64,000 bases of DNA from Gammaproteobacteria bacterium (lineage in GTDB: Bacteria > Pseudomonadota > Gammaproteobacteria > Eutrophobiales > Eutrophobiaceae), in NCBI GenBank assembly GCA_030829985.1, contig JAURNW010000031.1:1-64000 (forward strand). The letters run 5' to 3'. Below are positions 28,824 through 32,005 of this stretch, piece after piece. Below the pieces are notes generated by a model, which did not search any database, was not told where the DNA came from, and was given only the letters and a program-made list of their open reading frames with translations. Both the position numbers and the translations under genes were made by a program. Numbering within the stretch: the first letter of the stretch is position 1; each line of letters starts with the position of its first letter.

Positions 28824-30569
28824 TTGAAAAAGCAAATTCAAGCCTTACTACTTCAATCTTTAACGGCATTACAGGCAAAACAAATTTTACCGATCAGTGA
28901 TCACGTTGAAATTAAGATAGACAATTCACGTGGTTCAGAACATGGTGATTTTGCATCTAATATTGCATTGATGCTGGCAAAACCTGCAAGATCCAACCCG
29001 CGAGAGTTAGCGCAAAATATAATTGCGCACTTGCCTGAGTCTGACCTATTAGATCACGTTGAAATTGCCGGCCCAGGATTCATCAACTTTTTCCTGAAAG
29101 AAACCGCTCATCAGGCTATCGTTGCTGAAATTCTGGATAAAGGCGATCGATATGGCGATTCTGATATCGGCGCTAACATTCCAACACTGGTAGAGTTTGT
29201 TTCGGCAAACCCAACCGGGCCTCTGCATATTGGACATGGTCGTGGTGCAGCATATGGAGCTGCTGTTTCCAGTTTATTGAAGAAAACCGGATTTGATGTC
29301 AGTTGCGAATATTATATAAATGACGCAGGACGACAAATGGACATCCTCGCAGTCAGCGTCTGGTTACGTTACCTGCAACATTGCGGCACAGACATTCCCT
29401 TCCCTGACAATGCCTATCAGGGTGATTATATAAATGATATCGCTATCAAATTACACAACGATCATGCAGAAAAGTTCATTGTTAATTCTGACAATCTGTC
29501 GGCACTGTTTAAAGAAGAAGATGCCGAGCTAAGAATTGACGGTTTGATCAAATATTGTATTACCCAACTCGGAGATGAAACGTACAGAATTGTATTCGAT
29601 GCGGGGCTCTATTCAATATTGGCTACGATAAAAGATGATCTGCTAGGATTTGGTGTCGAATTTGATAACTGGTTTTCAGAACGTTCCCTGGTAAGTAATA
29701 ACACAGTCGACCAGTGCATAGAGAAACTAACCGAGCAGTCGTGGATATATGAAAAAGACGGGGCACAATGGTTTCGTTCCAGTGAACTAGGCGATGAAAA
29801 AGATAGGGTATTAATAAGGGAAAATGGTCAGGCAACCTATTTTGCATCTGATATTGCATACCACCTGTCAAAGATAGAACGCGGTTATGAAAAGATTATA
29901 GACATATGGGGCGCTGACCATCATGGATACATTGCCAGAGTAAAAGCATCCCTACAGGCACTCGATCAATCACCGGAAAAACTTGAAGTTCTTCTGGTTC
30001 AGTTCGCAACACTTTACCGTGGCAAAGAAAAGCTACAAATGTCTACTCGCTCAGGTGAATTTATCACCTTGAAAGAACTTCAGGATGAAGTAGGTAAAGA
30101 TGCTGCCCGCTTTTTTTACATCATGCGAAAAAGTGAACAACATCTGGACTTTGATCTGGAATTGGCTAAATCAGAATCAAGCGATAACCCGGTATACTAC
30201 ATACAATACGCACATGCCAGAATCTGCAGTGTGTTTAGACAAATGCCGGATAAAGGCTATGCTTATAATGAAGCAGATTCCCTGAAAGACTTATCCACCC
30301 TTATTGAACCTCATGAAATCAAACTACTGGCGATGCTTGCCAGATATACTGATGTAATAGAGAATGCCGCCACTACGTATGAACCTCATCAGCTGGCCTA
30401 CTATCTAAAGGATCTCGCAAATGATTTTCATACCTATTACAACGCAAACCAATTTTTAGTTGAAGATGACGTAATTAGAAATGCGCGTCTGGCCTTAATA
30501 GCGGCGACCAAACAAGTATTACAAAACGGGCTCTCTCTATTGGGCGTAAGTTCTCCAGAGGTAATGTAG
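28824..30569 (+). CDS. argS: Arginyl-tRNA synthetase
   Basis: 581 residues from TTG 28824 (GAGACGG six bases upstream); another TTG at 28809 would add five residues. The N-terminal Add-1 domain is followed by the class I signature FVSANPTGPLHIGHGRGA, and EKLQMSTRSGEF stands for the KMSKS-type loop. The C-terminal DALR anticodon-binding domain includes YIQYAHARICSVFRQ and ends LLGVSSPEVM. It charges tRNA-Arg. The stop overlaps the next start as TAGTG. Confidence 0.97.
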   Translation: MKKQIQALLLQSLTALQAKQILPISDHVEIKIDNSRGSEHGDFASNIALMLAKPARSNPRELAQNIIAHLPESDLLDHVEIAGPGFINFFLKETAHQAIVAEILDKGDRYGDSDIGANIPTLVEFVSANPTGPLHIGHGRGAAYGAAVSSLLKKTGFDVSCEYYINDAGRQMDILAVSVWLRYLQHCGTDIPFPDNAYQGDYINDIAIKLHNDHAEKFIVNSDNLSALFKEEDAELRIDGLIKYCITQLGDETYRIVFDAGLYSILATIKDDLLGFGVEFDNWFSERSLVSNNTVDQCIEKLTEQSWIYEKDGAQWFRSSELGDEKDRVLIRENGQATYFASDIAYHLSKIERGYEKIIDIWGADHHGYIARVKASLQALDQSPEKLEVLLVQFATLYRGKEKLQMSTRSGEFITLKELQDEVGKDAARFFYIMRKSEQHLDFDLELAKSESSDNPVYYIQYAHARICSVFRQMPDKGYAYNEADSLKDLSTLIEPHEIKLLAMLARYTDVIENAATTYEPHQLAYYLKDLANDFHTYYNANQFLVEDDVIRNARLALIAATKQVLQNGLSLLGVSSPEVM

Positions 30570-31159
30570 TGCCGCGTGATTATAAAAACATTAAACCTAA
30601 AAAACCTGAACCGCTTGTACAGCGCTTCAGTGGTGCGCTTTCCTTTATAACAGGATTAGCACTGGGATTATTTTTCGCAGTCATTGTCTATTTTCATGAA
30701 CACAGCGCGACAATAGAAAAAAATAATCCGTTGCTCGTAAATGAGCCAGTACATGACAATGAAATTATTGCAGACAGTGAAAATAAAGCTCACCTTCCCG
30801 AACCACAATTTGACTTCTATAAAATATTACCCAGCAAAGAAATCAATATTTCCGAATGGGAATCAATCGAAGAAGACACCCCTGTTGTTAAACAGGAAGA
30901 AGAAGATAAGCCCGTAATGTTTGTGCTACAGGTTGGCTCATTTAAGGAATTTAGCGCTGCTGATGAAATAAAAGCCAAACTTGCCATGATGGGCGTCACT
31001 GCTGATATCCAACGCGTAGTCATAAATGGCCAGGATGTCCGTCATCGCGTCAGAATTGGACCCTACAAAAATAGTGAGAAATTAAAACATGATCGCGACA
31101 CATTATTAGCTAATGATCTGGATTTCATGCTACTAAAATTAAAGATGGAAGATATATAA
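30569..31159 (+). CDS. SPOR-domain membrane protein (FtsN-like)
   Basis: 196 residues starting at GTG 30569, which overlaps the argS TAG. A basic cytoplasmic N-terminus (PRDYKNIKPKKPEPLVQRF) precedes one membrane helix (about 23-43), an acidic linker and a C-terminal SPOR domain (about 111-190, MFVLQVGSFKEFSAADEIKAKLAM ... RHRVRIGPYKNSEKL). The layout is that of FtsN, a divisome activator that binds denuded septal glycan. The argS-SPOR order is also found in Pseudomonas, but there hslVU follows and here it does not. Confidence 0.85.
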   Translation: MPRDYKNIKPKKPEPLVQRFSGALSFITGLALGLFFAVIVYFHEHSATIEKNNPLLVNEPVHDNEIIADSENKAHLPEPQFDFYKILPSKEINISEWESIEEDTPVVKQEEEDKPVMFVLQVGSFKEFSAADEIKAKLAMMGVTADIQRVVINGQDVRHRVRIGPYKNSEKLKHDRDTLLANDLDFMLLKLKMEDI

Positions 31160-31189: not shown

Positions 31190-31295
31190 TGGAGCGGGTG
31201 ATGGGAATGACCGCCATGGATGGATGCAATTGCCAGTGCGAACACCCACATTCTCAGCTTGGGAAGCTGATGTTCTGCCATTGAACTACGCCCGC
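31190..31295 (-). tRNA. tRNA-Gly(CCC) gene with about 32 extra bases in the T-arm
   Basis: Minus strand. Acceptor GCGGGCG, D-arm GTTC-AATGGCA-GAAC, anticodon arm TCAGC-TTCCCAA-GCTGA (anticodon CCC) and variable GAAT closely follow E. coli glyU. The T-stem GTGGG/CCCAT is recognisable, but the loop between its strands is 39 bases instead of 7. The 3' side is CACCCGC-T-CCA with CCA encoded. Acceptor position 6-67 is a C-A mismatch, where the usual form would be CGCCCGC. The gene is either a decayed tRNA, one with a removable insert, or one affected by recombination in the T-arm. GGG codons could be read by tRNA-Gly(UCC). Confidence 0.7.
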
Positions 31296-31612: not shown

Positions 31613-32005
31613 ATGAGCGACGAAAAACAAACAGTAGTTGTAGTAGACGATAATGCTACTGTTCGAGCGCTGTTCGAGCGTAGCACGGAAGATCTGTCGC
31701 TCGATTTATTCAGTTTTGGTTCAGCTGACGCTGCGATGGAATATCTCACAGAGAATAAACCAAACCTCTTATTCCTCGATATTATTATGCCTGATAAGGA
31801 TGGCTTAACTTTCTTGTCTGAGTTAAGAAAGCTACCTCTACATCGCGATACCTCTGTGATTATGATTACTTCAAAAGATTATGCGCAGGATCGAACCGTT
31901 GCCAACGAGCTAGGGGCATTGGAATTTATTACCAAACCGATGCCAATGCGTGCAATTACAGATATAATCACAAATTATATTAACAAAGAAAATCCTTACA
32001 ATTAG
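31613..32005 (+). CDS. Single-domain response regulator (CheY-like)
   Basis: 130 residues, only a receiver domain. The acidic pocket is at 12-13 (VVDD), the phosphoacceptor is Asp56 (LLFLDIIMPDKDG), the switch Thr is at 86 (MITSK) and Lys108 lies in FITKP. There is no output domain, so it must act by binding a partner. It starts 13 bases before the metallo-beta-lactamase-fold gene and is probably co-expressed with it, which suggests a phosphosignalling pair. No histidine kinase is adjacent. Confidence 0.9.
   Translation: MSDEKQTVVVVDDNATVRALFERSTEDLSLDLFSFGSADAAMEYLTENKPNLLFLDIIMPDKDGLTFLSELRKLPLHRDTSVIMITSKDYAQDRTVANELGALEFITKPMPMRAITDIITNYINKENPYN

Follow-up and report, generated by a model that had tools for sequence, protein, structure and literature searches.

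A tRNA-Gly(CCC) gene with a truncated double-hairpin repeat in its T-loop, probably in decay, in a marine gammaproteobacterium

Double-hairpin elements occur in the mitochondria of Allomyces. Repetitive hairpin-forming elements (RHE) are present in sponge mitochondria (PMC2800124), and Rickettsia palindromic elements (RPE) occur inserted in the genes for tmRNA and RNase P RNA (PMC2229807). RPEs and the mitochondrial hairpin elements are the closest known kinds to the repeat described here, termed E. As with RPEs, E is small, palindromic, gene-free and interspersed, and is found inside a structured RNA gene. RPEs, however, measure 105-146 bp whereas E has about 53 bp and two hairpins, an informal comparison gave no sign of a sequence relation, and the host of E is the T-loop of a tRNA gene that looks inactivated rather than a tmRNA or RNase P RNA gene. 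With the mitochondrial double-hairpin elements and RHE, E shares two adjacent hairpins, multiple copies and a mobile appearance. Those elements are organellar, and sponge RHE keep their helices and vary in their loops, whereas the first helix of E varies in sequence with compensation.

REP/REPIN repeats, which like E are short bacterial palindromes in many copies, are paired with RAYT transposases (PMC3116915, PMC3733652). E lacks the GTAG/CGTC ends typical of REP, and just one of 12 genus genomes has the Y1 transposase (PF01797); mobilisation of E by a RAYT is therefore disfavoured. An interrupted T-loop is also known from the red alga C. merolae, in which T-loop introns include one at position 55/56 of the same isoacceptor, tRNA-Gly(CCC) (PMC3978253). 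Such algal and archaeal T-loop introns are of the BHB type and are cut by a tRNA endonuclease (PMC3978253), an enzyme that is absent here. Searches of the open-access literature, of which the coverage was incomplete and which gives no proof of novelty, found neither E nor a T-loop insertion in bacteria described.

The interrupted gene and its insert

The window, that is, the whole 64,000-nucleotide stretch of DNA analysed here, contains the gene at 31295..31190 on the minus strand (Table 1). The initial annotation described a gene for tRNA-Gly(CCC) in which the T-loop has 39 bases, the acceptor a C-A mismatch and CCA is encoded, and a reading of the sequence bears this out. On the minus strand the gene reads GCGGGCG TA GTTC..GAAC A TCAGC TTCCCAA GCTGA GAAT GTGGG (39-nt loop) CCCAT CACCCGC T CCA. 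All pairs of the D, anticodon and T stems are formed, the sole non-pair of the acceptor is C6-A67, and the CCC anticodon, the D arm and the encoded CCA are all present. The 5' part of the gene is 90-98% identical to the corresponding part of tRNA-Gly(CCC) in relatives. A functional tRNA-Gly(CCC) would have a 7-nt T-loop and fully paired acceptor and T arms, in place of which the window gene has the 39-nt loop and C6-A67. The Rfam tRNA model (RF00005) matches only with the T arm jumped, and ARAGORN makes no tRNA call at this gene, an oversight that is a caution for annotation.

Table 1 Features of the locus in the window.
Feature	Coordinates	Strand	Basis
SPOR-domain-like (FtsN-like) gene (putative product), syntenic left neighbour	30569..31159	+	same order in genus members
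T-stem 3' strand, acceptor 3' strand, discriminator T, encoded CCA	31190..31205	-	sequence reading
TT, 3' remainder of the T-loop	31206..31207	-	comparison with intact genes
31-nt insert CACTGGCAATTGCATCCATCCATGGCGGTCA, E lacking 22 internal nt between CCAT repeats	31208..31238	-	equals E of G006 minus 22 nt
TGTTCG, 5' remainder of the T-loop	31239..31244	-	comparison with intact genes
5' part: acceptor 5' strand, D arm, anticodon arm (CCC), variable region, T-stem 5' strand	31245..31295	-	RF00005, 35.7 bits
Response-regulator-like gene (putative product), syntenic right neighbour	31613..32005	+	same order in seven genus members

The 39-nt loop is composed of TGTTCG, the insert and TT. The normal T-loop is TTCGATT; the 5' remainder TGTTCG has two bases more, two related species (G007 and G009) have TATTCG at this place, and the A of ATT on the 3' side is common to the loop and the end of the element. 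For the first 31 bases of the loop (GTTCGCACTGG...CCATGGC) the window has a single occurrence, against a chance expectation of 0. The insert exactly equals an intact copy of E from a related genome (G006:C27, L070/L286; CACTGGCAATTGCATCCATGCATTGCCAGTATTTCCGCCATCCATGGCGGTCA) minus GCATTGCCAGTATTTCCGCCAT, the 22 bases between two CCAT repeats. The intact copy forms two hairpins (-17.9 kcal/mol as DNA, z -6.4). The deletion takes away one arm of each of them, so that the 31-nt remnant no longer folds; its folding is no better than that of its shuffles.

The window genome (2.17 Mb, 38 tRNA matches) contains normal genes for tRNA-Gly(UCC) and tRNA-Gly(GCC). Since tRNA-Gly(UCC) can read GGG by wobble, this codon is readable without tRNA-Gly(CCC), as the initial annotation had argued; across ten window genes, 10.6% of all glycine codons are GGG.

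The double-hairpin repeat in the family

E is a gene-free interspersed repeat of about 53 bases with two hairpins and the ends CACT and GTCA/G. A regular-expression search found 22 copies, 21 of the 53 family genomes and 10 of the 18 genera contain E-like matches, and the ends of the window insert recur in intergenic repeats across the genus. Among 16 ungapped copies, eight of the nine pairs of the first hairpin are changed on both sides. Over the whole structure there are 39 double-changed cells against 11 in shuffles, and none of 500 shuffles reaches 39. Selection on the hairpin could account for this covariation, as could quasi-palindrome correction during replication. A family of covarying double-hairpin repeats comes to light at intergenic sites and, here, in a tRNA T-loop.

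Being multi-copy, interspersed and hairpin-forming, E has the properties of a small palindromic mobile repeat (RPE/MITE-like), and its sequence record suggests mobility. Orthologous sites are empty and filled, respectively, in the tRNA T-loops of G003 and of G007 and G009. A second site carries E in G007:C36 and none at the orthologous position of G009:C63; in about 140 kb of aligned contigs of these two genomes this is the one clear empty/filled pair apart from the tRNA. No clear target-site duplication is visible by eye at E, no enzyme for its movement was found, and a search for transposases of the Y1 family gave none linked to E. The window genome itself has an array of several different small hairpins, with ATCCAT or ATGGAT at the apex and one E-like unit among them, after a terminator-like hairpin (L095, G000:C9:88500-91000, at about 1120-1320).

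State and history of the gene in relatives

Public genomes with a related locus are metagenome-assembled gammaproteobacteria under the labels Thiotrichaceae or Legionellales; G000 denotes the window genome and the other G-numbers related genomes of the family. Conservation in the genus extends to the order SPOR gene, (kinase gene), tRNA-Gly(CCC), response regulator, and synteny of the SPOR-like gene was seen in G001, G003, G004, G005, G006, G007 and G009. In most genus members (L087, L088, L089, L093) the SPOR gene and the tRNA are separated by the Ser/Thr-kinase-like gene, of which the C-terminal part is cNMP-binding-like; it is absent from the window genome (31160-31190), and only a remnant is present in G006.

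At this locus the T-loop of G007 and G009 is interrupted at the site used in the window, by an insert that is longer but has the same ends. The T-loop is normal, with 7 bases, in G003 and G006, whereas G001, G004 and G005 lack tRNA-Gly(CCC). Because the interruption is shared by two independently assembled species, G007 and G009, an assembly error, which comparison with relatives could have revealed, is rejected. The interrupted genes score 35.7, 37.8 and 32.2 bits with the Rfam tRNA model, compared with 66.0 and 69.8 bits for intact genes, and these are the lowest tRNA scores in the interrupted genomes checked. Each of the three interrupted genes (G000, G007, G009) contains a stem mispair, of which the intact genes compared have none, and that of G009 has lost its CCC anticodon. 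From sequence comparison, these mispairs and the loss of the anticodon appear to form a pattern of relaxed selection. The intact, interrupted and absent states, side by side in one genus, mark a route to losing a spare isoacceptor tRNA.

The history of the locus is more complex than a single event. In trees built from 4 and from 9 proteins, G000 falls outside G006, and G006 outside G003, G007 and G009 (support 87% in the first tree and 100% in the second). Support for joining G003 with G009 is only 72-79%. The intact genes of G006 and G003 fall among interrupted lineages, and one simple insertion is therefore insufficient. Either the T-loop was hit more than once, or a single old interruption was later undone in some lineages, with the tRNA restored. 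In G006 a relic of E, with GGTTCG just before it, lies downstream of the intact tRNA at a position that corresponds to E of G009, as judged by the common 3' flank. The spacer of G006 was also considered as a decayed second tRNA copy and rejected, the local alignment being no better than shuffles. In G015 the right-hand junction of E and T-arm is found downstream of a tRNA with a normal T-arm. G022 has a tandem pair of tRNA-Gly(CCC) genes, one of them with its T-loop interrupted by a repeat that is unrelated to E and is matched 10 times in the G022 genome. After the interrupted copy comes the 3' T-arm sequence of the tRNA in inverted orientation (CCCATCACCTGTGATGGGAATCG; L018, G022:C22). In G019:C15 (L007), the 3' end and flank of an intact tRNA-Gly(CCC) recur about 190 bp downstream of it, in a manner that resembles an att-site duplication, and in G021:C1 two tRNA-Gly(CCC)-like matches, at 1595388 and 1598800, are 3.4 kb apart.

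Explanations of the interrupted T-loop

It is highly probable that a dispensable tRNA-Gly(CCC) gene had its T-loop invaded by the ~53-bp E, that the element was later cut to 31 bases, and that the gene is now decaying. E, gene-free and double-hairpin, would have entered the loop of the redundant gene between G57 and A58, at the T-arm hairpin apex, presumably through a template switch in replication or something akin to transposition. Slippage between the two CCAT repeats would then have removed 22 bp; the tRNA gene would have lost its function, and gene and element would both decay. The identity of the insert, the normal loop of other relatives, the multi-copy and palindromic nature of E and the mispairs in all interrupted copies support this directly. 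Since tRNA-Gly(UCC) reads GGG, the product of the interrupted gene is presumably non-functional and not under selection. Because the window gene has, apart from the insert, only a single disabling change, and retains CCC and its D and anticodon arms, it may have been inactivated very recently or retain residual function. Decay, one of the fates initially proposed, agrees with the extra mispairs, the lowest tRNA scores, the loss in relatives and the presence of tRNA-Gly(UCC). A decaying gene is thus the most likely reading rather than a new kind of tRNA, and for a tRNA-like RNA with a new use, another of the proposed fates, no support was found.

Continued use of the gene, with the insert cut from the transcript or the 39-nt T-loop tolerated, is very improbable. 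The intact T, D and anticodon stems of the window gene, its retained CCC and CCA and the C. merolae introns would be in keeping with it. However, a profile search for the tRNA splicing endonuclease (PF01974) with positive archaeal controls found none in the window genome, which disfavours a BHB intron. The Rfam intron models give no match to the insert at E-values up to 1, and 31 nt in a T-loop contrast with the catalytic core of more than 200 nt, typically in the anticodon loop, of a group I intron, so that the initial dismissal of such an intron holds. Splicing is unlikely because the insert consists of 31 unstructured bases, there is no tRNA endonuclease gene, and all three interrupted genes contain mispairs; the anticodon is lost in G009, and close relatives do without the gene at this locus. 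Removal of the insert, as once suggested, is disfavoured accordingly. Nor is there much to commend the footprint of a tRNA-targeting integrase island in place of a small repeat, which we regard as a slim chance. Integrases classically target the 3' ends and T-loops of tRNA genes, the 3' ends are duplicated downstream in G019 and G015, and in G006 an intact 3' half is followed by GGTTCG and the E relic. In the window, on the other hand, the tRNA end has no direct repeat, its sole other good match in the genome being the normal tRNA-Gly(UCC). A second tRNA 3' end is found only in other relatives, inspection of ORFs beside the gene noticed none that is integrase-like, and E accounts for all the inserted bases. 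The recombinase scar of the initial annotation thereby gives way to a truncated interspersed repeat without duplicated tRNA ends, while its notion of the T-loop as a preferred target gains some support from relatives in which this loop is interrupted, in one case by an unrelated repeat.

Invasion of the T-loop by E could be refined, rather than replaced, by the idea that E inserts by recognising hairpin loops and that the T-arm was picked for its structure; this is possible but doubtful. In G007 and G009 the hairpins of E have longer interiors that contain further repeats of the genus. At 17 distinct sites, the copies of which are not all independent, a 28-nt module B has complementary flanks (mean stem 4.6 bp compared with 2.6 bp for shuffled flanks, a value as high being reached by none of 300 shuffles), and B therefore sits in hairpin apices. 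The T-loop of G022 with its different repeat and the covariation of the E hairpins point the same way. Against this, most copies of E are outside any obvious hairpin loop, the tRNA events are few, and template switching can also yield complementary arms. Module A shows no flank complementarity and was rejected as a hairpin-apex inserter. Loop targeting by E itself is accordingly a lead, not a result. Rather tentatively, the tiny gene-free hairpin elements of the family may enter the loops of other hairpins, nesting in one another and in the T-arm of tRNA-Gly(CCC), guided by structure and with no known transposase, the tRNA gene being reversibly lost and restored. If the preference for loops is real, structure-guided insertion of tiny repeats becomes directly testable.

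Two apparently orthologous intergenic sites, L117 (G009:C62) and L118 (G007:C38), differ by a third hairpin module that seemingly lies inside a hairpin loop. A separate family of long-palindrome repeats (GCCACAGAGAACACAGAGG...CCTCTGTGTTCTCTGTGGC) is present in G009 (C75 at about 69415; C11 at about 1669 and 26986) and missing from the orthologous sites of G007.
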